Below, one piece after another: positions 14,392 through 25,671 of a stretch of DNA of 64,000 nucleotides. The translations under genes were made by a program, and so were the position numbers. The stretch is from Nocardioides aurantiacus (lineage in GTDB: Bacteria; Actinomycetota; Actinomycetes; Propionibacteriales; Nocardioidaceae), in contig NZ_RKHO01000001.1 in assembly GCF_003752505.1 (NCBI RefSeq), forward strand, positions 2,418,001-2,482,000, read 5' to 3'. Below the pieces are notes generated by a model that saw only the letters and a program-made list of their open reading frames with translations, ran no database searches and had not been told where the DNA came from. How positions within the stretch are numbered: position 1 is the first letter of the stretch; each line of letters opens with the position of its first letter.

Positions 14392-15510
14392 TCAGCTGTT
14401 CTCGGCCTGCTCGGCGCCCCGGCGCCAGCGGATGCCGGCCTCGAGGAAGCCGTCGATGTCGCCGTCGAAGACGGCCTGGGGGTTGCCGACCTCGAACTCC
14501 GTCCGCAGGTCCTTGACCATCTGGTAGGGGTTCAGCACGTAGTTGCGCATCTGGTCGCCCCAGCTCGCCTGCACGTCGCCGCGCAGCGAGTCGAGGTGGG
14601 CCCGTTCCTCGGCCTTCTTCAGCGCCAGGATCTTGGCCTTGAGGATGACCATCGCGCTGGCCTTGTTCTGCAGCTGCGACTTCTCGTTCTGGCAGGACAC
14701 GACGGTGCCGGTCGGGATGTGGGTCAGCCGGACGGCGGAGTCGGTGGTGTTGACCGACTGGCCGCCGGGGCCGCTGGAGCGGTAGACGTCGACGCGGATG
14801 TCCTCGTCGGGGATGTCGATCTCGTCGGTCTGCTCGAGCACCGGCACCACCTCGACGGCGGCGAAGGAGGTCTGGCGACGGCCCTGGTTGTCGAAGGGGC
14901 TGATCCGCACCAGCCGGTGGGTGCCGGCCTCGACGGAGAGGTGGCCGTAGGCGTACGGCGCGTGCACGGCGAAGGTGGCGCTCTTCAGGCCCGCCTCCTC
15001 GGCGTAGGAGGTGTCGAAGACCTCGACGTTGTACTTCTGGCGCTCGGCCCAGCGGGTGTACATCCGCATCAGCATCTCGGCGAAGTCGGCCGCGTCCACG
15101 CCGCCGGCGCCGGAGCGGATCGTCACGAGCGCCTCGCGGACGTCGTACTCCCCGTTGAGCAGGGTGCGGACCTCGAGCGCCTCGACGGACTTGTGGAGCT
15201 TGAGCAGCTCGGCCTCGGCCTCGGCCATCGAGTCGGCGTCACCCTCCTCCTGACCGAGCTCGACGAGGACGCCGAGGTCCTCGATGCGGCTGGACAGGCT
15301 CTCGAAGCGGTCGAGCGTGCCCTGGAGGTGGCTGAGCTTGCCGGTGACCTTCTGGGCGTTGGCCTGGTCGTCCCACAGGTCGGGGGCGGCGACCTGCTCG
15401 CCGAGGTCCTTGATCTCGCGGCGCATCTCGTCGACGTCCAGGACGGAGCCGATGGTCTTCATCGTCGCCTGGAGCTGCTTGATCTCGGAGTCGAAGTCGG
15501 TGGCTGCCAC
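14392..15510 (-). CDS. prfB: Peptide chain release factor 2
   Basis: A 372-residue class I release factor that reads UGA and UAA. The peptidyl-tRNA hydrolysis motif GGQ is in '[20 protein letters not shown]' and the RF2-specific anticodon-like SPF is in '[16 protein letters not shown]'. Length is normal. Start is GTG 15508-15510 ('[14 protein letters not shown]'). The frame is continuous, so the programmed frameshift that controls prfB in many bacteria is absent here, as is usual in actinobacteria. Confidence 0.96.
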
Positions 15511-15521
15511 AGTCCGACAGG

Positions 15522-15797
15522 CTACGGGACGGGTTCGATGTCGGCCGCGGGGAGCCAGCGGGCGACGGTGGCCCAGCCGACGGCGTCGACCCAGACCACC
15601 GAGACGACCCGCCCCTCCCAGCCGCGCTCGGTGCGGCACCACTCCACGAGCAGGCTGGGCTCGCCGTCGACGCGGCAGTGCCGGGCCGGGGTGTGCGGGA
15701 CGGGCGGGTCGGGCACCGCCGCGGGCCCCGGGTCACCCCGACCCGCGACCCGCTCGGCCAGCGTGCCGTGGTCGCCCGATCCGTAGCCGCCTCGCAC
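15522..15797 (-). CDS. Hypothetical small protein upstream of prfB
   Basis: A 91-residue frame ending 11 bases before prfB with a GTG start. The second half reads like a small folded domain ('[20 protein letters not shown]' and '[19 protein letters not shown]'), while the N-terminus is Pro/Gly-rich. No family recognised. Its position suggests cotranscription with prfB. The GTG choice is uncertain and the gene itself is moderately supported. Confidence 0.5.
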
Positions 15798-15911
15798 CGG
15801 ACCATCATGACACCGATTCGAACACGTGTACGACTGTCCACGAGACGGGACTCACGTTGCCGGCCGCCTGCGAGGGGGTAGGACAAGGGCAACCTACCGA
15901 GGAGTCACATC

Positions 15912-16712
15912 GTGAGCGCACGCCCCGCCCGCACCGTCGTCATCACCGGAGCCGCCGCCGGCATCGGCCGTCGTACCGCCCTGACCCTGGCCGGCAACGG
16001 CTGGACGGTCGGCGCCTTCGACCTCGACGAGACCGGGCTGGCGACCCTCGCCGACGAGGCCGGCCGGCTCCCGGGACGCATCCTCACCGGCCACCTCGAC
16101 GTCACCGACGCCGCGGAGTTCGCCGAGCGGGTCGACGGGTTCGTCGCCGAGACCGGGCGGCTCGACGCGATCGTCAACAACGCCGGCATCCTGCTGGCGG
16201 GCCGCTTCGAGGAGATCGACGTGGCCAAGCAGCACCGCGAGATCGACATCAACACCAAGGGCGTCGTCAACGGCCTGCACGCCGCGTTCGCGCACCTCAA
16301 GGCGACGCCCGGCTCGGTGGCGGTCAACCTGGCCTCGGCCTCGGCGATCTACGGCCAGGCCGAGATCGCGAACTACAGCGCGACCAAGTTCTTCGTCCGC
16401 GGTCTCACCGAGGCGCTCGACATCGAGTGGAAGCGCCACGGCATCCGCGTCGCCGCGATCTGGCCGCTCTACGTGCAGACCGCGATGACCGACGACATCA
16501 AGACCGGCACCACCGACCGGCTCGGCATCAAGCTCGGCCCCCAGGACGTCGCCGACGCGATCGTCGGCGCCATCGACCCGCCGCTCCCGCGCCGCCTGGC
16601 CAAGCAGGTGCACTTCACGGTCGGGGCCCAGACCCGCGCGATGGCCCTCGGCTCGCGCTTCTCCCCCGCCTGGCTGACCCGCGCGGTCAACAAGAACCTG
16701 GCCGGTCACTGA
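15912..16712 (+). CDS. Short-chain dehydrogenase/reductase
   Basis: A 266-residue SDR. The cofactor motif 'TGAAAGIGRRTAL' opens the protein, 'IVNNAGI' follows near residue 92, and the catalytic Ser, Tyr and Lys are in 'LASASAIYGQAEIANYSATK'. The Asp in 'GAFDLDETGL' after strand 2 favours NAD(H). The N-terminal GTG/ATG region is preceded by GAGGAG. The substrate is unknown; the C-terminal 'ALGSRFSPAWLTRAVNK' tail resembles SDRs annotated as acting on lipids or alcohols. It appears monocistronic. Confidence 0.88.
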   Translation: MSARPARTVVITGAAAGIGRRTALTLAGNGWTVGAFDLDETGLATLADEAGRLPGRILTGHLDVTDAAEFAERVDGFVAETGRLDAIVNNAGILLAGRFEEIDVAKQHREIDINTKGVVNGLHAAFAHLKATPGSVAVNLASASAIYGQAEIANYSATKFFVRGLTEALDIEWKRHGIRVAAIWPLYVQTAMTDDIKTGTTDRLGIKLGPQDVADAIVGAIDPPLPRRLAKQVHFTVGAQTRAMALGSRFSPAWLTRAVNKNLAGH

Positions 16713-16764
16713 GGCGGACGGCGACGACCGCGCGTGCATCCACGGGGGGTGCGGAGTCGGAAGA

Positions 16765-16800
16765 GACGTCAGGACAGGGAGCCACCGGGCACCTGACGTC
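16765..16800. repeat. Inverted repeat in the fasciclin gene leader
   Basis: GACGTCAGG (16765-16773) and CCTGACGTC (16792-16800) are perfect 9-bp arms around an 18-base loop. The right arm ends directly before the AAAGGA ribosome-binding site of the fasciclin gene, so a hairpin could affect translation; it could also be a regulator site. Confidence 0.5.
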
Positions 16801-16816
16801 GAAAGGAACCTCCGAC

Positions 16817-17458
16817 ATGAGCAAGCTCCTCACCCGGGCAGCAGGGACGGTCGCGGTCGCCCTGCTGGCCACGGGCCTCTCGCCCGCCTCCGCCACGACC
16901 CAGGCCACCGCCGCGGCGCCCTCCGGCAACCGCAGCCTCGCCACCGTGCTCACGTCGGACGGCAACCGCTTCGACCGCAACGCCCATGACTACGACGTCA
17001 CGACCGAGGCCGTGCTGGCCGTGCTCGAGGCCAAGCCGGACAGCGCTGTCGGTGTCCTGGCCGACGGGTCGCAGCCGCTGACCGCGTTCGTGCCGACCGA
17101 CCGCGCCTTCCGTCGGTTGGTCCACGCGCTGACCGGGAAGTGGGTCCGCAGCGAGCGGCACGTCTTCGAGGCCGTGGCCGGTCTCGGCATCGACACGGTC
17201 GAGCAGGTGCTGCTCTACCACGTGGTGCCGGGGAGCACGATCGACCGTCGCGCGGCGCTGGCCTCGGACGGCGCCCGGCTGACGACCGCCGCCGGCCCGA
17301 CCGTCACGGTGGACGTACGCCGCAGCCCGCGACGCGTCGTGCTCCTGGACCGCGACCCGAACGCCTACAACCCGCGCATCGTCCGCTTCGACCTCAACCG
17401 CGGCAACAAGCAGATCGCGCACGCCGTCAACCGGGTCCTCCGCCCCGCCGACCTGTGA
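16817..17458 (+). CDS. Secreted fasciclin-domain protein
   Basis: A 213-residue protein with a signal peptide (1-27) and one fasciclin (FAS1) domain. H1-like motif 'LTAFVPTDRAFRRLV' and H2-like 'VEQVLLYHVVPGSTI' are clear. FAS1 domains mediate adhesion; the mycobacterial Mpt70/Mpt83 proteins are the best-known relatives. ATG 16817 has AAAGGA upstream. The gene lies 46 bases before an ECF sigma/anti-sigma pair, as mpt70/83 lie near sigK/rskA, so regulation by that sigma factor is likely but inferred. Confidence 0.9.
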   Translation: MSKLLTRAAGTVAVALLATGLSPASATTQATAAAPSGNRSLATVLTSDGNRFDRNAHDYDVTTEAVLAVLEAKPDSAVGVLADGSQPLTAFVPTDRAFRRLVHALTGKWVRSERHVFEAVAGLGIDTVEQVLLYHVVPGSTIDRRAALASDGARLTTAAGPTVTVDVRRSPRRVVLLDRDPNAYNPRIVRFDLNRGNKQIAHAVNRVLRPADL

Positions 17459-17504
17459 GTCCGGACCACCACGCGCGCTGCCGCGCGATCGCTACCCTGG
17501 GTCG

Positions 17505-18089
17505 ATGACCGGGAGCGGACTGCGCGGCAGCGCCGTGGTGGACCTGGCGACAGCACTCCGGGACGGTCGCCACGACGCGCTCGAGGAGCTGTTCGACCGG
17601 TGGTCGCCGCTCGTCCACTCGTTGGCGTGGCAGGCGCTGCGCGACCCCCACGAGGCCGACGAGGTCACCCAGCTGGTCTTCGTCTCGGCGTGGCGCTCGC
17701 GCGAGACCCTGCGCCCCTCCGACACCGCCCTGCCCGCGTGGCTGGTCGGCATCTGCCGGCACCGCATCGCCGACCGCTTCGCCGACCGGTCCCGCGAGTC
17801 CCGCCGCCTGGCCCGGATGGCGTCCGAGGAGGACGTGCTGGAGGCCGACCGGGTCGAGGTCCTCGGCACCGAGCAGTTCCTCGAGGCGCTCACCATGGAG
17901 GAGGCCCTCGGCGCCCTCCCCGAACCGCGGCAGACCGTCGTGCGGCTGGCCTTCCTCGAGGACCAGACCCACGCCGAGATCAGCCGCCGGCTCGGCCTGC
18001 CGCTTGGCACGGTCAAGAGCCACGTCCGCCGGGGACTGCTCCAGCTGCGCGACCGGTTGGCGGTGAGCCATGACGACGCACCTCGATGA
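17505..18089 (+). CDS. ECF RNA polymerase sigma factor
   Basis: A 194-residue group IV sigma factor. Region 2 runs through 'ALEELFDRWSPLVHSLAWQA' and 'EADEVTQLVFVSAW'; region 4 is 'LPEPRQTVVRLAFLEDQTHA' through 'LGLPLGTVKSHVRRGLLQL'. The C-terminus overlaps the next gene, an anti-sigma factor, by 20 bases. It resembles SigK/RpoE-type factors controlled by RskA-like anti-sigma proteins. Upstream fasciclin is a likely target. Confidence 0.93.
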   Translation: MTGSGLRGSAVVDLATALRDGRHDALEELFDRWSPLVHSLAWQALRDPHEADEVTQLVFVSAWRSRETLRPSDTALPAWLVGICRHRIADRFADRSRESRRLARMASEEDVLEADRVEVLGTEQFLEALTMEEALGALPEPRQTVVRLAFLEDQTHAEISRRLGLPLGTVKSHVRRGLLQLRDRLAVSHDDAPR

Positions 18090-18798
18090 CGACGACCTGG
18101 CGGCCGTCGCGCTCGGCGACCACGAGACGGAGCTGCCGCCGTCGGCCTGGAGCCACGCCGAGTCCTGTGCGCACTGCGCCACCGAGGTCGAGGCGCTGCA
18201 GGCCGTCGTCCGCCGGGCACGGGCGACCCCCGCCTCCGCCCCGCCGGTCGGCCCGGGCGTGTGGCGCTCCGTGGAGCGCGAGATCGCCGCCGACGACGCA
18301 CCGCCCGCCGCGCCGGCGCCGGGGTCGACCGCCCCGCGACGGCACCACCCACGGCGACGGGGGGCGCTCCGGCTGCTCGCCGGCGCGGCCGCGCTCGTGC
18401 TGGCCGCCGGCGCCGGGCTGGCGTACGGGCGGACCCTCGCGCCCGACCCGCCGCGGGCTCAGGACCAGGTCGTCGCGCGGGCCGACCTCACCACCGTCGA
18501 CGGTGATGCGTCCCGGGGCCGGGCCCAGGTGGTGCGCGCCGACGGCGCGCTGGCGCTGCGGATCTCCGCCGCCGACCTCGGCGACGAGGCCGGGTGGCAC
18601 GAGGTGTGGCTGCTGCACGACGACGGCCGGGGCCTGGTCTCGCTGGGCACGCTCGGCGGCGGCGAGAGCGGCACCTTCCCGCTCCCCGGCGCACTGCTGC
18701 GCGAGGGCTACACCACGGTCGACGTCTCGCTCGAGGACGACGGCGACCCGGCCCACTCCGGGCGGTCCCTGGCGCGAGGACGACTGGGCGACGTCTGA
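18070..18798 (+). CDS. Membrane anti-sigma factor with zinc-binding motif (RskA-like)
   Basis: A 242-residue transmembrane regulator. The cytoplasmic zinc anti-sigma motif is H29-x3-C33-x2-C36 ('SHAESCAHC'). A membrane helix (about 98-120) leads to an extracellular RskA-type C-terminal domain ('GWHEVWLLHDDGRG', 'GTFPLPGALL'). It should hold the overlapping sigma factor inactive until intramembrane cleavage or redox change. The gene overlaps the sigma gene by 20 bases. Signal unknown. Confidence 0.9.
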   Translation: MTTHLDDDDLAAVALGDHETELPPSAWSHAESCAHCATEVEALQAVVRRARATPASAPPVGPGVWRSVEREIAADDAPPAAPAPGSTAPRRHHPRRRGALRLLAGAAALVLAAGAGLAYGRTLAPDPPRAQDQVVARADLTTVDGDASRGRAQVVRADGALALRISAADLGDEAGWHEVWLLHDDGRGLVSLGTLGGGESGTFPLPGALLREGYTTVDVSLEDDGDPAHSGRSLARGRLGDV

Positions 18799-18956
18799 GA
18801 GGCGTACGGGCTGACCGGCCCTACCCCGCTCGCGCACGGCCATGCCTGGCGTTTCGAGACGCTCTAGTCCACCCCCATCCGGTTGCCGGTTCACCCACCT
18901 CGGGCACGTGGGGGGTGCCACGCTCGGCCGGCGACGAGAGGCGGGAGAGAGCAGCG

Positions 18957-19835
18957 ATGACGGCAGCACGGACGGCGAGCCCCCAGGCGACCGACGACGG
19001 GGCCCCGGTCGACGGCGCACCGGGGCGGGGCGCCCCCGCCGACGGCCGGCTGGACTGCGTCCTGCAGGTGCTCGGCGGTGCCTCCGTGGCCGGCGTCGCC
19101 CGGGGCGCGGGCCTGGAGCCGGCCGTGGTCCACCGGTGGGTGCGGCTGTTCACCGACGCCGGCGCCGCCGGCCTCGCCAACCGGCCCGACCCGACCCTGG
19201 CCCAGCAGCGCGACCGCTTCCTGGCCGCGTTCGCCCACGAGATCCGTACGCCGCTCGCGGTCGCCCAGGGCTGGACCGACATCCTCGCCGACGGCGACCT
19301 CCCCGAGGACATGACCGCCTCGACGGTCGGCAAGCTCGGCGCCGCGCTCGCGCTGCTGGCCGAGCGCACCCAGGAGGTGGAGTACCTCGCCGCCGCGTCA
19401 CTGGGGCGGCTGCGGGTGACCCGCCGCGCGGTCTCGGCCCTCGCGCTGGTGCCCGACGGCGAGGCTGCGCCGAGCGGCGACCTCGACGCCCGGGTCGACA
19501 CCGATCCTGGCCTGGCCGCCCGGGTCGTGCGCGACCTGTGGGCGGCCGCGGCGATGGCCCCCCGGCCCACGCGGCGCGAGCTCCAGGTCCGCGACACCGG
19601 GATGTGGGTCGAGCTGCGCGTCGTCCGGACCGGTGAGCCGATCCCCGCCCGCACCCTGCACGCGCTGTTCGAGCCCTTCGACCGCAACGACGACGCCACC
19701 GGCGTCTCCACCGGTCTCTACCTCGCCCGCGCCCTCAGTGTCGCCCTCGGCGGCACCGTCGGGCTCGAGCAGGACTCCGAGCGCGCCGTGTTCTGGGTGC
19801 GTCTCCCCTCCCCCGAACCGAGGACCCTCCGATGA
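18957..19835 (+). CDS. Helix-turn-helix domain fused to a degenerate histidine kinase
   Basis: A 292-residue cytoplasmic protein with no membrane segment. Residues 31-78 form a transposase/homeodomain-type HTH ('GASVAGVARGAGLEPAVVHR'). A dimerisation/phosphoacceptor box follows with His94 in 'AAFAHEIRTPLAVAQGW'. The C-terminal ATPase-like domain ends with 'DATGVSTGLYLARALSVALG', but the N-box Asn and the DxGxG G1 box are not recognisable. ATP binding may be weak or lost. Start at ATG 18957 after GGGAGAG. The stop overlaps the next gene. A DNA-binding kinase without its own response regulator is unusual. Confidence 0.8.
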   Translation: MTAARTASPQATDDGAPVDGAPGRGAPADGRLDCVLQVLGGASVAGVARGAGLEPAVVHRWVRLFTDAGAAGLANRPDPTLAQQRDRFLAAFAHEIRTPLAVAQGWTDILADGDLPEDMTASTVGKLGAALALLAERTQEVEYLAAASLGRLRVTRRAVSALALVPDGEAAPSGDLDARVDTDPGLAARVVRDLWAAAAMAPRPTRRELQVRDTGMWVELRVVRTGEPIPARTLHALFEPFDRNDDATGVSTGLYLARALSVALGGTVGLEQDSERAVFWVRLPSPEPRTLR

Positions 19836-20014
19836 TCTTCCGCCTCGCCTGTGGCGACGTCATGCCCGGCTGCGCCGCCAGCTTCGAGAACACCGACAAG
19901 AGCCTGCTGCTCGAGGAGGTCGCCCGTCACGCGGCCGCCGACCACGGCATCGCCGAGATCACGCCCGAGATGCTCGCGGCCGTGGACGGCAAGATCGTGC
20001 AGGCACCGGCCTAG
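19832..20014 (+). CDS. DUF1059 family small protein
   Basis: A 60-residue protein with the DUF1059 signature: 'RLACGDVMPGCAASFE' (Cys7 and Cys14) and a conserved central His region 'EVARHAAADHGI'. Cys and His suggest metal binding. The ATG overlaps the TGA of the HTH-kinase gene (ATGA), so the two are coupled. It overlaps the convergent esterase gene by 4 bases. No function is known for the family. Confidence 0.88.
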   Translation: MIFRLACGDVMPGCAASFENTDKSLLLEEVARHAAADHGIAEITPEMLAAVDGKIVQAPA

Positions 20015-20949
20015 CGGCTCCCCACCAGCGCGGCGACGACCTCGCGGGTGCCGGTCCGGCCCTCGGGGGTGGGGGTCAGCGGGTGCACGTGGACCGCACC
20101 CGGCACCTCGTGCAGCGTCACCGGCGTACCCACCTCGCGGCAGCGCTCGACCAGCAGCAGCGTGTCCGGGTGGAGCGAGTCGCGGGTGCCGATCCACACC
20201 GTCATCGGCGGCAGCCCGTCGAGCCGACCGAGCAGGGGGCTGACCCGCGGGTCGCGGAGGTCGCCGCCACCCATCCACACCCGGGCCACCTCGCGCGCGC
20301 CCGGCGTCGAGAGCCAGGGGTCGTCGACGCGGTCGATGTCGGGGTTGGTCAGCGTGGCGTCGACCCACGGCGCGACCAGCACCAGCCGCGCGACTCCGAC
20401 GCCCTCGTCGCGCAGCACCTGCGCCAGCCCCAACGCCAGCCCGCCGCCGGCGGAGTCGCCCGCCAGCACCAGTCCTCCCCCGGCGCCGACCGGCACGTCC
20501 TGGTGGGACTCGGGAGACGGTCGCGACTGCCACGGTCTCCCGAGCGCACCCGGATCGGCGGCCAGGTCGCGGCAGAGCCCGACCAGGAAGGCGTAGGCGT
20601 CGTCGCAGGTGTGGTCGGGCGCGAGGCCGTAGAGGGGCACCACGACGCGGCAGCCGGCGTCGACCGCCGCCGAGACCAACGCCCAGTGCTGCGGGGCGAT
20701 CTCGGACAGGTAGGTGCCGCCGTGCAGGTAGACCACCGTGCTCGCCGGCACGCGCTCCGGCTCCACGTAGTAGACCCGGAACCCACCCACCTCGGCCTCG
20801 TGCACGTCGTGGCGGTCCCGGAACCGCTTCGGCGGCGACGGATCGGCCTTGGGCTCGGCGAGCCGCTTCCGGGCTCGGCCCACGGTCGCCATCCGCGGCT
20901 TCCGGGTCACCCGCAGCACCAGTCCCACGCCCCGCATCTGCCAGCTCAT
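20011..20949 (-). CDS. Alpha/beta hydrolase, hormone-sensitive-lipase type esterase
   Basis: A 312-residue esterase. Oxyanion motif 'VVYLHGGTYLS' and nucleophile elbow 'LAGDSAGGGLAL' are typical of the HSL family. The acid is likely the Asp in 'VWIGTRDSLHPDT', and the base is a His in 'VPGAVHVHPL'. The N-terminal 45 residues are basic. It is presumably cytoplasmic and acts on short-chain esters. Separate from the Tad operon upstream by a large inverted repeat. Confidence 0.88.
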   Translation of the reverse strand: MSWQMRGVGLVLRVTRKPRMATVGRARKRLAEPKADPSPPKRFRDRHDVHEAEVGGFRVYYVEPERVPASTVVYLHGGTYLSEIAPQHWALVSAAVDAGCRVVVPLYGLAPDHTCDDAYAFLVGLCRDLAADPGALGRPWQSRPSPESHQDVPVGAGGGLVLAGDSAGGGLALGLAQVLRDEGVGVARLVLVAPWVDATLTNPDIDRVDDPWLSTPGAREVARVWMGGGDLRDPRVSPLLGRLDGLPPMTVWIGTRDSLHPDTLLLVERCREVGTPVTLHEVPGAVHVHPLTPTPEGRTGTREVVAALVGSR

Positions 20950-20990
20950 GGGCGCAGGCTCCCACGGTCCGGTGAGGTGCGGTCGAGCCG

Positions 20991-21079
20991 CACCCGGCCG
21001 ACGATCAGTTCGCGGTCGCCGGGTGTGGGTCCCCGCCTGGGCGTCGGCGCAGGGTGCTGAACTGATCGTCGTTCGGGTG
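20991..21079. repeat. 21-bp inverted repeat between the Tad operon and the esterase gene
   Basis: CACCCGGCCGACGATCAGTT+C (20991-21011) pairs with 21059-21079 at 19 of 21 positions; the inner 13 bases are perfect. The loop is 47 bases. The direct repeat CGGGTGTGGGT also occurs at 21020-21030 and 21074-21084. It may end tad transcription or be a dispersed repeat family; no T-run is seen. Confidence 0.6.
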
Positions 21080-21090
21080 TGGGTGCGGCG

Positions 21091-21525
21091 TCAGTCGGAG
21101 ACCACGACGACCGAGGCGGCCTGGCCGGTGATCCGGACCTGCTCGCCCACGCCAGGCACACGCAGCGGCAGGTCGGTCGGGGCGGCGAGACTGACGATCA
21201 CGGTGTCACCGGTGGTGCGCACCGAGTGGGACAGGCCGGGGAAGCGCTGCGACGCGCCGCTGGCGGCGAGGTAGGTGGCGACGTACTGCCGGGCCGCCTG
21301 CGGGTCGATCTCGGCCCGCCGACCCAGGCCTTGCGTGTAGACCTGCTCGCCCTGCAGCCCGTCGGTGGCCGCGAGGGCCGCGGCGTCGGCGGTGGCGTTG
21401 AGGCCCTGGCGCCGGAGGTACGCCGCGGACGCGTCGACGACCACGGCCACCACCAGCGCGACCACGACCGTGAAGCCGATGATGAGCGGCGTCATCGACC
21501 CGTGCTCGTCGCGGGGCCGGCTCAC
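21091..21525 (-). CDS. TadG/TadE-like pilus assembly protein (last gene of tad operon)
   Basis: A 144-residue protein, start GTG 21523-21525 in a GTGA overlap with the gene before. The N-terminal 'DEHGSMTPLIIGFTVVVALV' is the prepilin-like stretch of Rv3654c/TadG-type proteins: charged residues, a Gly, then a hydrophobic helix. 'RRQGLNATADAAALAATDG' after it is a hallmark of secretion-neighbourhood TadE-like proteins. It is probably a minor pseudopilin or assembly protein in the membrane. Confidence 0.82.
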   Translation of the reverse strand: MSRPRDEHGSMTPLIIGFTVVVALVVAVVVDASAAYLRRQGLNATADAAALAATDGLQGEQVYTQGLGRRAEIDPQAARQYVATYLAASGASQRFPGLSHSVRTTGDTVIVSLAAPTDLPLRVPGVGEQVRITGQAASVVVVSD

Positions 21526-21959
21526 GGCCGCTCCTCGCGGAAGGTGCCGTACGGCGCCTGGTGGTCGGCCTGCAGCCGGATCGCCGGCGTCTGCGACCCG
21601 AACACCGCCGGCAGCAGCGGCAGGTCGACCGAGGAGCGGACCTCCGCGCGGACCACCGACCCGGGGGTGAGGCAGTCGCGGGGTACCGGCCGGCAGGTGA
21701 TCTCCACCCGCGGCGCGTCGGTGAGGCCCTGGTCGGCGTACGCCAGGCGGGCGGCTGCCTGGGCACGGGAGTACGCCGAGGCCTGGTCGGGCGAGGTCAC
21801 GAACGCGCGACCGGCCGAACGGGCCGCGGCCGAGGCGGCGTACGCCGCGCGCTGGGTCTCGAAGACGGTCAGCACGACGTAGAGCAGCGGCACCAGCAGC
21901 AGGATCGCGAGCCAGACGAACTCGATCACCGCGGTCCCCTCCTCGTCGTGCGCCGTCAC
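21522..21959 (-). CDS. TadE-like pseudopilin
   Basis: A 145-residue protein with GTG start overlapping the preceding stop. 'DEEGTAVIEFVWLAILLLVP' is the TadE motif (Gly, then a hydrophobic helix with an acidic residue at +5). 'QRAAYAASAAARSAGRAFV' follows the helix. The C-terminal domain holds a likely disulphide pair ('ITCRPVPRDCLT'). It is part of the tad operon and probably processed by a prepilin peptidase that is not in the window. Confidence 0.84.
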   Translation of the reverse strand: MTAHDEEGTAVIEFVWLAILLLVPLLYVVLTVFETQRAAYAASAAARSAGRAFVTSPDQASAYSRAQAAARLAYADQGLTDAPRVEITCRPVPRDCLTPGSVVRAEVRSSVDLPLLPAVFGSQTPAIRLQADHQAPYGTFREERP

Positions 21960-22387
21960 GGCTGGTCCTGCAGCAGCGGCTCCTGCACCCCGTGGCCCTC
22001 GACGTCGAGCGAGACGCCCGGGCCCCACAACCCGAGCGGAGGCACGACGGCCCGCACCCGGACCTCGACGGTCGGCACTCCCCCGGTCGTCGTACGACGC
22101 GCGGAAACGTCGCGCGCGAACCGGTCGGCGATCGCGCCCCGCACCTGCTGGCGGGTGCGGGCCACGCCGTCGGCCGGACCCCGGTCGAGGGTCGCGCCGT
22201 AGCGGGCACCCTCCGTCGCGGCGGCGGTCAGGGTGTTGCGCACGTGCAGCACCAGCCCGACCTGGACGAGGCCCAGGACGAGCGGCACGAGCACCATGCT
22301 GACCAGGACGAAGTCGACGACGGCGGCGCCGGCCTCGTCGCGGCGCCACCGGTCGGGCTCAGCCCGAGACCGAGGCGAGCGCTTCAC
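21956..22387 (-). CDS. TadE-like pseudopilin
   Basis: A 143-residue paralogue of the next gene. The N-terminus is basic, then 'DEAGAAVVDFVLVSMVLVPL' gives the Gly/Asp prepilin-type motif, followed by 'HVRNTLTAAATEGARYGATL', the typical TadE sequence. GTG start; the first 29 bases overlap the end of the pilin-like gene. Together with the two following genes it likely forms the minor pilin set of the Tad apparatus. Confidence 0.85.
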   Translation of the reverse strand: MKRSPRSRAEPDRWRRDEAGAAVVDFVLVSMVLVPLVLGLVQVGLVLHVRNTLTAAATEGARYGATLDRGPADGVARTRQQVRGAIADRFARDVSARRTTTGGVPTVEVRVRAVVPPLGLWGPGVSLDVEGHGVQEPLLQDQP

Positions 22388-22538
22388 GCAGCATCGCGCC
22401 CAGCTGCGAGCCGGCGATGGCCCAGAGGCCGGCGACCAGACCGGCGGTCATCACGGTGATCAGGACCCAGCCGGGCACGTCGCCGCGCTCGTCGCGCGGG
22501 TGGCGCAGCCGCTGCAGGGGTGAGGGAAGGTGTCGCAC
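22359..22538 (-). CDS. Small Flp-type pilin-like protein, 59 codons
   Basis: A short frame, GTG 22536-22538 to TGA 22361-22359, with a strong ribosome-binding site (GGAGGAACC directly upstream). The protein has a basic start ('RHLPSPLQRLRHPRDERG'), then Gly-Asp and one hydrophobic helix ('GWVLITVMTAGLVAGLWAIA') and ends 'SQLGAMLREALASVSG'. Its size and position between tadC and the TadE genes match the major Flp pilin slot in actinobacterial tad loci. The usual Glu at +5 after the cleavage-site Gly is not obvious, so the pilin role is an inference. Confidence 0.65.
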   Translation of the reverse strand: MRHLPSPLQRLRHPRDERGDVPGWVLITVMTAGLVAGLWAIAGSQLGAMLREALASVSG

Positions 22539-22583
22539 GGTTCCTCCAGGTGGTGGGGTTCTCGGCCAGAAGACGGGGGCGGG

Positions 22584-23510
22584 TCAGGGCACGACCAGGC
22601 GCAGGCCGACCAGGCCCGGCCAGAACGCGAAGACGACGACGGTCGGGAGCACGAGGAAGACGACGGGCACCATCATCAGGACCTCCCGGCGCGCGCCGGT
22701 CTCGATCAGGGCGCGTCGCGAGGCCTCGCGGACGTCGCCGGCCTGGGCGTGCAGGACGTCGGACAGCGGGGTGCCGCGCTCGACCGCGACGGCCACGCCC
22801 TCGGCGAAGCGCGAGACCACGGCCAGACCGGAGCGGGCCGACATCTCGTCGAAGGCGCGGGTGATCGGCGTACCGGTGCGGACGTGGGCGAGGACGCGCG
22901 CCAGCTCGGCGGACAGCTCGCCCGAGGAGCGGCGCACCACGCGGTCGAGCGCCGCGACCGGGCTCTCCCCGGCCGCCACGGCCAGGGCCAGCAGCTCGGC
23001 GACGGTCGGGAACTCCTGCAGGATCTGCCGCTCGCGGGCCGCGACCTGGGCGCTGAGGCGGTTCTCCCGCAGCAGCACGCCGCTGACGAACGCGATGCCG
23101 CAGAACACCAGCAACGGCACCGACCGCTCCGGCGAGGTGGCGGCGACCAGGCCCGAGGGCACCGCGGCGAGGGTGAAGCCGACCAGCCCCCAGACCACCT
23201 GCTCGACGCGGAACTGGGCGACGTCGATCTCCAGGCCGGCCCGCTCGATCCGGCGCCGCACGGACGTCGAGCCGCCCATGACACGCTCGACCGCCCGTCC
23301 CGCGGCCTGCAGCGGCGGTCCGAACACCCCCGCGAAGGCGTTGGACGACGCCGGCGGCGCCGGCAACGACGCCGGGCGCGGGAGGTCGCGCACGTAGGGC
23401 AGCACGCGCACCGCGATCGGCGTACGACGGGCGTCGAGCAGTGCCACGACGACGAGCCAGAGCCCGGCACCGAGGGCGCCGCCGAGCAGGCCTCCGAGGA
23501 GCGGCGTCAC
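22584..23510 (-). CDS. tadC: Tad pilus inner-membrane platform protein TadC
   Basis: A 308-residue type II secretion F-domain protein. Start is GTG 23508-23510 (GTGA overlap with tadB). Two N-terminal helices, the cytoplasmic F-domain ('LQEFPTVAELLALAVAAGES', 'GTPITRAFDEMSARS', 'RGTPLSDVLHAQAGDVRE') and a C-terminal helix pair ('VLMMVPVVFLVLPTVVVFAF') are all visible. With TadB it forms the platform on which the TadA ATPase works. Confidence 0.88.
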   Translation of the reverse strand: MTPLLGGLLGGALGAGLWLVVVALLDARRTPIAVRVLPYVRDLPRPASLPAPPASSNAFAGVFGPPLQAAGRAVERVMGGSTSVRRRIERAGLEIDVAQFRVEQVVWGLVGFTLAAVPSGLVAATSPERSVPLLVFCGIAFVSGVLLRENRLSAQVAARERQILQEFPTVAELLALAVAAGESPVAALDRVVRRSSGELSAELARVLAHVRTGTPITRAFDEMSARSGLAVVSRFAEGVAVAVERGTPLSDVLHAQAGDVREASRRALIETGARREVLMMVPVVFLVLPTVVVFAFWPGLVGLRLVVP

Positions 23511-24352
23511 GACAGGATCCGCCGCTCGACGGGGAGCCGGCCGATCCGCACCATCAGCCGGTACGCCGCGGCGCACAGCAGGCCGCCCGTCGCGAGCACC
23601 ACCACCCCGGCCCCGGTCGCGTAGCGCTGGATGACGTCGGGCTGGAAGCAGAGCAGGAGCAGCACCAGCCACGGGGCGGCAACGGCCAAGCGGGCGCCGT
23701 TGACGGTCCACGACTGCCGCGACTGCAGCTCCGAGCGCGTCCTGGCGTCGTCGCGCAGGTAGCCCGAGAGGCTGCGCAGCAACCGGCCCAGGTCACCGCC
23801 GCCGACCTCGCGGGCCACCCGGAGGCTCTCCACGACCCGGTCGCCGACGGGGTCGGCCAGCCGCTCCTTGAGCCGGTCGAGCGCGACGGCGAAGCGCCCG
23901 CCGACCTGGTAGTCGAGCGCGAACCCGGCGAACGCCCTGCGCAGCGGCTCGGGACCGCGCTCGGCGAGCGCCGCCAGCGCCTCCGGCAGGGACATGCCGG
24001 CCCGCACCGCCGACGCCAGGTTGTCGACCGCCTCGGGCCAGACCTCGGCGAACTCGCGCTGCCGGCGCTCGGCCCGGCCGCGCAGCAGCGCCACGGGCAG
24101 GTAGGCGCCCATGACGCCGAAGGCCAGCGCGACCGGCACCGTCCGCGAGGCCAGCAGCACCACGGTCGTGGCCGCCACGGCGGTCACGACGCACACCACC
24201 ACGAAGCCCGCCGGGCTCACGTCGGGCAGGCCGGCCCGGGCGAGCAGGGGCTGCAGCCGCGGCTGCCGGGTGCGCGCCGGCGCGGCCGGCCAGGTCGAGG
24301 ACCACACCAGCAGCAGCCCGACGCCCAGCACCAGCCCCAGGAGAGCGCCCAT
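23507..24352 (-). CDS. tadB: Tad pilus inner-membrane platform protein TadB
   Basis: A 281-residue type II secretion F-domain protein starting at ATG 24350-24352, which shares one base with the tadA stop. N-terminal helices, then the F-domain ('WPEAVDNLASAVRAGMSLPE', 'REVGGGDLGRLLRSLSGYLR'), then 'GARLAVAAPWLVLLLLCFQP' and a last helix. Standard size for TadB. It belongs to the coupled chain tadA-tadB-tadC. Confidence 0.88.
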   Translation of the reverse strand: MGALLGLVLGVGLLLVWSSTWPAAPARTRQPRLQPLLARAGLPDVSPAGFVVVCVVTAVAATTVVLLASRTVPVALAFGVMGAYLPVALLRGRAERRQREFAEVWPEAVDNLASAVRAGMSLPEALAALAERGPEPLRRAFAGFALDYQVGGRFAVALDRLKERLADPVGDRVVESLRVAREVGGGDLGRLLRSLSGYLRDDARTRSELQSRQSWTVNGARLAVAAPWLVLLLLCFQPDVIQRYATGAGVVVLATGGLLCAAAYRLMVRIGRLPVERRILS

Positions 24353-25671
24353 CAGCCGCCTCCCCCGAGGATGCGGTGGACGTCGACGCCGGCCCGCTCG
24401 AAGGTGTCGAGCCGGGTGGGCATGCCGCCCGCGTGGACCAGCTCGCCGTCGCGGCGGACGAAGATCGGCTCGGTCTCGACGATGTCGTGCTCGACCCTCC
24501 CGGGCACGGCCACGATCTCGTTGACACGACGGGTGCCGCCCAGGTCGATGCCGAGGTGCACCACGAGGTCGACGGAGCTCGCCACGGTGGGCACCACGAA
24601 CCGGGCCGAGATGTTCTCGCCAGCCAGCAGCGGCAGCGTGCAGAGCTTGACCAGCGCCTCCCGGGCGCTGTTGGCGTGGAGCGTCGCCATGCCGGGCAGG
24701 CCGGAGTTGAGCGCGAGCAGCAGGTCGAGGCTCTCCGCCGACCTGACCTCGCCGACGATGATGCGGGTCGGCCGCATCCGCAGCGTCTCGCGGACCAGGT
24801 CGCGCAGCGTCACCGCGCCGTTGCCCTCGAGCCCGACCTGGCGGGTCTGCATCGCGACCCAGTCCGGGTGTCCGAACCGCAGCTCGAAGACCTCCTCGGC
24901 CGACACGATCCGGTCGCCGCCCGGGATGGCCGAGGCCAGGCAGTTGAGCATCGTGGTCTTGCCGGCCTGCGTCGCGCCGGCGACGACGATGTTCTGCCCG
25001 GCCAGCACCGCGGCCTCGAGGAACTGCGCGGCCTGGGCGGTCAGCGACCCCAGCCGCACCAGGTCGGCGAGCCGCGCCGCCCGCAGCACGAACTTGCGGA
25101 TGTTCACGGCCGAGAACTGCCGGCTGATCCCCTCCAGCACCACGTGCAGCCGATGCCCCTGCGGCAGCATCGCGTCCACGAACGGCTGGCTCAGGTCGAT
25201 CCGGCGCCCGCTCGACTTCAGCATCCGCTCGACCAGGTCCTGCACCTCCGCGCGGGTCAGGATCACGTTGGTCAGCTCGTGGCGCCCCCTGCGAGCCACG
25301 AACACCCGCGAGGGCTCGTTGATCCAGATCTCCTCGACCTCCGGATCGTCGAGGAACCGCTGCAGCGGCCCGAACCCCGAGACCCGCGCCACCAGCTCCT
25401 CGACGGTCCCGACCGGGTCGGGCACCGGGGCGACCACGCCGGTCAGGCTGCGGTCGTCGTGCTCGCGCACCACCTGCTCGGCGATCCGGCGCACGTGCCG
25501 CACGTCGAGCTGCGGGTCCACCCCGTCCCGGCGTACGGCGGCCCGCACCAGCTCGTCGAGCGCACCCACCAGGTCCAGGTCGAGACCCGGCTCGACCTGG
25601 GCAGAGCTGGGAGGGACCGCGCGAGGAGCGCCAGCGCCCGAGACGTCCACTGACATGCCCAGCAGCATCAC
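24352..25671 (-). CDS. tadA: Tad pilus assembly ATPase TadA/CpaF
   Basis: A 439-residue secretion ATPase. An N-terminal all-helical region leads to 'GFGPLQRFLDDPEVEEIWIN', typical of CpaF. Walker A is 'VVAGATQAGKTTML' (Gln-Ala where Gly-Ser is usual), the Asp-box Glu is in 'VSAEEVFELRF', Walker B is 'RIIVGEVRSAESLD' and the His box is 'GMATLHANSAREAL'. It powers pilin polymerisation. An ATG at 25654-25656 ('MSVDVSG') is a possible later start. First gene of the operon. Confidence 0.92.
   Translation of the reverse strand: MMLLGMSVDVSGAGAPRAVPPSSAQVEPGLDLDLVGALDELVRAAVRRDGVDPQLDVRHVRRIAEQVVREHDDRSLTGVVAPVPDPVGTVEELVARVSGFGPLQRFLDDPEVEEIWINEPSRVFVARRGRHELTNVILTRAEVQDLVERMLKSSGRRIDLSQPFVDAMLPQGHRLHVVLEGISRQFSAVNIRKFVLRAARLADLVRLGSLTAQAAQFLEAAVLAGQNIVVAGATQAGKTTMLNCLASAIPGGDRIVSAEEVFELRFGHPDWVAMQTRQVGLEGNGAVTLRDLVRETLRMRPTRIIVGEVRSAESLDLLLALNSGLPGMATLHANSAREALVKLCTLPLLAGENISARFVVPTVASSVDLVVHLGIDLGGTRRVNEIVAVPGRVEHDIVETEPIFVRRDGELVHAGGMPTRLDTFERAGVDVHRILGGGG

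Follow-up and report, generated by a model that had tools for sequence, protein, structure and literature searches.

A helix-turn-helix protein with a degenerate histidine kinase core, constantly paired with a DUF1059 protein, as a candidate DNA-binding pseudo-histidine-kinase

What can a histidine kinase core do when it sits behind a helix-turn-helix (HTH) domain in a single protein, carries a damaged ATPase domain, and is encoded far from any receiver domain? The question is raised by a two-gene unit in the window, our term for the whole 64,000-nucleotide stretch of DNA that was analyzed, which is part of a 4.06-Mb single-contig genome. Among named relatives, Marmoricola sp. Leaf446 comes closest, at 97% identity, and Marmoricola belongs to the Nocardioidaceae within the Propionibacteriales. 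The two genes of the unit encode a long, kinase-like protein of 292 amino acids (aa) and a DUF1059 protein of 60 aa (Table 1). A preliminary description of this DNA had placed an HTH, a HisKA stretch, and a defective ATPase within one soluble protein and had proposed that its translation is coupled to that of DUF1059. Pfam searches and an alignment of homologues bear out the domain composition, and the coupling is borne out by an ATGA in which the stop of the long reading frame overlaps the start of the short one by 4 nt. The HisKA and HATPase_c scores both lie above the curated Pfam cut-offs, as does the DUF1059 match (57.5 bits versus a cut-off of 21.1), and the HTH matches (HTH_29 at residues 31 to 77, E 6e-4; HTH_Tnp_1, E 4e-3) lie below theirs. 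No NCBIfam model matched either protein at cut-off. Overall, the observation made in the preliminary description is confirmed and its interpretation is partly supported. The reading that we prefer, with about an even chance of being right, is a DNA-binding pseudo-histidine-kinase that would receive its signal in trans and would work together with a small, metal-finger-like DUF1059 partner.

Table 1. Features of the two-gene unit and its upstream region (nucleotide positions in the window; residues of the respective protein)
Feature	Position	Strand	Evidence
HTH-HisKA-degenerate HATPase_c protein, 292 aa, predicted soluble	18957..19835	+	ORF and Pfam
DUF1059 protein, 60 aa	19832..20014	+	PF06348, E 1.7e-15; paired in 25/25
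HTH domain, residues 31-77	19047..19187	+	HTH_29 and HTH_Tnp_1 matches; R60, W61 in 25/25
HisKA (DHp) stretch, residues 84-118	19206..19310	+	PF00512, E 1.6e-7
Putative phosphoacceptor His94, H-box	19236..19238	+	H94, R97, P99 in 25/25; E95 in 23/25
Degenerate HATPase_c (CA) domain, residues 184-286	19506..19814	+	PF02518, E 1.3e-9
Replaced N-box DLWAAA (NLLxNA expected), residues 193-198	19533..19550	+	D193, L194, W195 in 25/25
Replaced G1 box RTGEPI (DxGxGI expected), residues 224-229	19626..19643	+	R224, P228 in 25/25
Altered G2 box GVSTGL, residues 249-254, middle Gly replaced	19701..19718	+	Residue 251 is S (5) or T (20)
Putative metal site C7-x6-C14-x18-H33-x4-H38 of the DUF1059 protein	19850..19945	+	Pattern in 25/25 paired copies
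CTAG, possibly in a -10-like element upstream of the 292-aa gene	18864..18867	+	Weak evidence

GHKL ATPases bind Mg and adenine through the N-box Asn and the G1 Asp. Both residues are lost from all 25 full-length copies of the long protein. The N-box reads D-L-W-x-(A/T)-(A/G) throughout, with Ala (18 copies) or Thr (7 copies) at the position of the second Asn; the G1 box reads Rx(G/A)xP(I/V), with Arg in place of Asp and Pro in place of the second Gly; and the middle Gly of the G2 box is always Ser or Thr. The earlier claim that the N and G1 boxes are lacking is therefore right in substance, and these replacements dispose of the possibility that the ATPase is normal. A single loss would prove little, since the G1 Asp is also absent, as aligned, from the two best PDB matches, 9eut (a bacteriophytochrome) and 7zp0 (a sensor protein), as well as from two homologues in another class of the same phylum (L082 and L083). 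The G1 box of 7zp0 is NPGTPI and has GxPI in common with the 292-aa protein, whose G1 loop is partly preserved, with the Asp as the missing element. What stands out in the alignment is that the N-box Asn and the G1 Asp are missing together. As a control, both residues are present in each of the 29 further ATPase-bearing HisKA proteins that were examined from the genome; the G1 Asp was identified by pattern, and the Asn at the second N-box position by strict pattern in 26 and by eye in 3. HisKA matches in this genome number 34 including the 292-aa protein; 30 of the others were examined and three were left out, and one of the 30 (L145) has a reading frame that contains no ATPase. In the 292-aa protein the ATP site has very probably lost its function, and as the protein is unlikely to phosphorylate itself from ATP, it is better called a "pseudokinase or phosphotransfer-type protein."

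The joint loss in 25/25 homologues, compared with 0/29 of the other kinases examined, speaks against an atypical but active histidine kinase, which would bind ATP in another geometry, autophosphorylate, act on a distant response regulator, and use the HTH as a small input domain. So does the comparison with L082 and L083, in which the N-box is kept and the HATPase_c scores are 82 and 74 bits, respectively, versus 39 bits for the 292-aa protein. We regard such an enzyme as quite improbable, although the F-box and part of the G2 box are kept in 25/25 copies (P240 and F241; G253 and L254), the H-box is nearly intact, 7zp0 is named a sensor protein with its G1 box NPGTPI, and 28 receiver domains are encoded elsewhere in the genome.

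The ATPase domain of the pseudokinase looks reused rather than decaying, since the replaced residues vary no more than the phosphoacceptor His and dN/dS is below 1 in all five pairs compared (two close pairs gave 0.13 and 0.09, and three more distant ones 0.28, 0.34, and 0.35). Purifying selection acts on the kinase-like protein. For DUF1059, dN/dS over the same five pairs ranges from 0.06 to 0.69 and is noisy, being drawn from few sites. In the H-box, His94, Arg97, and Pro99 are invariant across the 25 copies, whose identity to the 292-aa protein goes down to 43%, and the Glu is present in 23. Gly substitutes for this Glu, directly after the phosphoacceptor His, in L056 and L087, so the constraint on the H-box is not full everywhere. 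The AlphaFold model of the 292-aa protein (mean pLDDT 42) is too poor for use, with helices at the HTH and HisKA positions.

The N-terminal domain carries the DNA-binding part of our preferred reading. When the N-terminal 60-residue stretches of the 25 homologues were searched alone at E<=0.01, HTH_Tnp_1 was found in 21, HTH_29 in 14, HTH_28 in 12, and HTH_23 in 8, with a best E of 3e-6; scans of full-length proteins found these families in 11, 5, 4, and 2 of 20, respectively. R60 and W61, which fall in the putative recognition helix, are the same in every copy. The HTH match ends at residue 77 and the HisKA match starts at residue 84, leaving no sensor domain in between. That the HTH is a mere dimerisation helix, which the preliminary description had considered, is less likely in the light of these family matches, and the 292-aa protein is probably DNA-binding. 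A profile of the HTH found nothing significant among PDB sequences: the best match, at E 0.024, is a ketosynthase, and the DNA-binding RacA appears at 0.92. Among 23 upstream stretches (the near-duplicates L010 and L019 having been removed), no shared operator-like dyad or k-mer rose above shuffled controls. The tetranucleotide CTAG occurs in 13 of these 23 stretches (9 when a shorter region is taken, 14 with a longer one) and in 12 of 61 upstreams of other, roughly called genes, a comparison in which the regions are differently defined and the controls may contain some of the same loci. The upstream CTAG is at most a -10 element.

A DUF1059 gene lies next downstream on the same strand in 25/25 full-length homologues, which come from 24 genomes of two families in one order. 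The preliminary description had counted a lack of conservation of this HTH-HisKA and DUF1059 pair among three possible refutations of its proposal, and no unpaired copy was found among the 25. The gap between the genes is estimated at -31 to 101 nt, with start codons chosen by script, and the genes overlap in 13 of the 25 loci. A search of the window's own genome with DUF1059 gave a single match. Within the genus, 11 of 24 genomes carry 12 copies of the kinase at E<=1e-15, and the strong DUF1059 genes (12, with at least 50 bits) occur only in the same 11 genomes, with 6 weak ones of 22 to 25 bits elsewhere. Among 197 genomes of the family, the kinase is present in 19 (20 copies, E<=1e-30) and DUF1059 at E<=1e-6 in 39, at 45 places, 20 of which adjoin the kinase and 25 of which do not. 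All 19 kinase genomes are among the 39 DUF1059 genomes, with a hypergeometric probability of 5e-16 that ignores kinship.

Searches at higher ranks extended this picture. The order search gave matches at E<=1e-20 in 31 of 293 genomes; the 19 with full-length matches (E<=1e-100) were taken in, and 12 with weak matches only were left out together with a second weak match in G008. This search added five copies, all paired, two of them from another family. Of the 13 weak matches, 12 begin no earlier than model position 61, and the remaining one (G322) begins at position 26. The class search (394 genomes) returned five matches, all of them previously found copies. The phylum search (396 genomes) gave matches in 19 genomes; apart from the window's own, only two homologues, in G636 and G541 (refetched as L082 and L083), came near E 1e-49, and a further 17 matches had E values of 1e-20 to 1e-24. 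Two of the weak phylum matches were read by eye, one having a receiver-like N-terminus (L084) and the other being KdpD-like (L090). L082 and L083 are likewise HTH-HisKA-HATPase proteins that align over the HTH and the rest of the protein (E 7e-50 and 4e-49), but they differ in keeping the N-box Asn, in having Ser for the G1 Asp, and in the lack of DUF1059 in their fetched flanks. Both adjoin PhoH and PhoU genes. Conversely, the 1.5- to 3-kb flanks of the fetched stand-alone DUF1059 genes (34 domain rows) contain no kinase of this family. Because DUF1059 is missing beside the homologues that keep the N-box and also stands alone without the kinase, it probably joined later, being added to an HTH-kinase ancestor whose ATPase subsequently degenerated, an order of events that we infer. 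In two genomes from another genus of the family (L102 and L104), two DUF1059 genes lie about 1.2 kb apart, and the fetched flanks do not include any member of this kinase family.

Apart from the pair, the wider neighborhood is variable across the 17 paired loci that were compared. These 17 of the 25 (the window, L085 to L089, and L091 to L101, with 5-kb flanks where available) were set beside L082 and L083; neighbor clusters were counted only if found in at least three loci, and domain scans covered some neighbors of six loci. L091 and L093 have many neighbors in common with the window, and L088 has one reading frame. In these three loci of one genus (window positions 14392-24800, L091, and L093), the pair lies, as judged by eye, between prfB-like and pilus-assembly-like genes, and the window has extra genes between these landmarks compared with the other two. 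Directly upstream of the unit, on the forward strand, are genes for an ECF sigma factor and an RskA-type anti-sigma factor (17505-18798); they were not counted as part of the module, being absent from the neighbors common to at least three loci. On the reverse strand, a convergent gene for an alpha/beta hydrolase (Abhydrolase_3, hormone-sensitive-lipase-like; 20011-20949) overlaps the DUF1059 stop by 4 nt.

A mobile or defense element was also considered and rejected. PADLOC gave no match, 31 plasmid records match the kinase with none covering 80% of its length, DUF1059 has no plasmid match, and a pattern scan of viral contigs found no DUF1059 relatives. In PHROGs, the long protein has two kinase-like matches and DUF1059 has none.

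Besides its presence in every paired copy of the DUF1059 protein, the C-x6-C-x18-H-x4-H pattern has its Cys and His columns conserved in at least 70% of 34 stand-alone DUF1059 rows, and a Cys2His2 metal site is likely. An AlphaFold model built on two near-identical sequences consists of a strand, a short helix, a strand, a long helix, and a helix, with a mean pLDDT of 69; set beside the beta-beta-alpha fold of Cys2His2 zinc fingers, it reads as strand-strand-helix. Fold searches with the model returned no match at E<=0.001 (Foldseek best E 4.3; VIA best Z 3.4), and among PDB sequences only a weak match was found (E 0.046, a protein named HeliScrew4). Roles as a sensor, a co-regulator, or an anti-regulator fit the protein equally well. 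In the literature searched, which included few subscription journals, DUF1059 is named in only two papers, in a 1m [NiFe]-hydrogenase cluster (PMC9561532) and in a gene table (PMC12470103).

How, then, would a protein with a dead ATP site and a kept phosphoacceptor His be switched? A genome scan found no receiver domain within 41 kb of the pair, and the nearest of the 28 in the genome lies about 42 kb off, in agreement with the earlier statement that there is no response regulator nearby. The lost ATP site, the kept His, and this distance together favor a signal that arrives in trans. Under the pseudo-histidine-kinase reading, the DHp helices would dimerize two HTH domains, as is expected from the family, and the CA domain, which the joint loss of N-box Asn and G1 Asp strongly suggests is unable to bind or use ATP normally, would not support self-phosphorylation. 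A response regulator or another kinase could phosphorylate His94 or dock on the DHp face, and this event may alter DNA binding by the paired HTH domains. The co-translated DUF1059, likely a Cys2His2 mini-domain, would bind the complex, perhaps at the remodeled CA face, as an obligate co-regulator or as a metal- or redox-responsive partner.

One alternative is a pure pseudokinase transcription factor, in which the DHp and CA domains form a dimerisation scaffold, DUF1059 or a ligand of the CA pocket is the signal, and His94 is never phosphorylated. It would be consistent with the invariant R224, D193-L-W, and P228 of the pocket (25/25), which point to a surface for a new ligand or partner, and with the constant DUF1059 pairing, the empty 41 kb, and the two copies that have lost the H-box Glu. 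Such a scaffold has no need for His94, Arg97, and Pro99, yet these are invariant in 25 copies down to 43% identity, and we consider it unlikely. The kept His with a dead CA domain is also what one would expect if the protein were the substrate partner in a heterodimer, in which the CA domain of an active kinase would phosphorylate His94 across the dimer and DUF1059 would regulate the complex. The genome encodes at least 29 further HisKA proteins that have both the N-box Asn and the G1 Asp. A search of the genome showed no paralogue with this HTH-DHp arrangement (the next match to the 292-aa protein is at only E 1e-9), and an adaptor of this kind is improbable.

A pseudo-histidine-kinase that is signaled in trans, as we propose, has partial counterparts. 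Most of what is known about pseudo-histidine-kinases comes from a few model systems. Spo0B has a degenerate CA-like domain; it is not known to carry an HTH, and it is likened to the 292-aa protein by description only. A kept His with a lost ATP site, as in ChpT/Spo0B-type phosphotransferases, is found here in 25/25 copies, and in the PDB a kinase-family profile found the DivL structure 4q20 among its chains (E 1.6e-12). ChpT (phosphotransfer) and DivL (docking) could serve as the two models for the signal in trans. In Spo0B, helical hairpins from two subunits build a four-helix bundle (PMC3433190). ChpT, a histidine phosphotransferase of Caulobacter, resembles the 292-aa protein in its kinase-like dimer plan, its phosphate-shuttling His, which becomes a phospho-His, and its CA-like domain, in which no ATP was bound, but its ATP lid is replaced by a helix, the likeness is by description only, and neither an HTH nor a DUF1059 partner is described in the excerpts of that paper (PMC3433190). 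DivL is a pseudokinase with a degenerate core that acts by docking, and thereby reading, a response regulator; unlike the 292-aa protein it has Tyr instead of the His, carries PAS domains, and has no HTH or DUF1059, according to the excerpted text (PMC4211667). In the literature searched, with few subscription journals, there is no description of an HTH-HisKA pseudokinase fusion or of its pairing with DUF1059.

With its DNA binding, its partner, and its signal all putative, we rate this family, on its sequence features, as a probable variant of the pseudo-histidine-kinases rather than a proven separate category. More tentatively, and with somewhat less than an even chance, it could represent an undescribed class of regulator, a dead histidine kinase used as a transcription factor, with the HTH in the place of the sensor, whose core receives the signal and whose obligate 60-residue metal-finger partner reads metal or redox state. 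If so, the usual flow of information would be reversed, with phosphate or partner state entering the kinase core and DNA binding coming out, with no response-regulator output. Having a partner gene that is constant in one lineage makes the function of DUF1059 testable. A family that is spread over two bacterial families and joins a probable DNA-binding domain to a kinase core with an intact His and a dead ATP site would show that such cores can be reused as regulated DNA-binding dimers.
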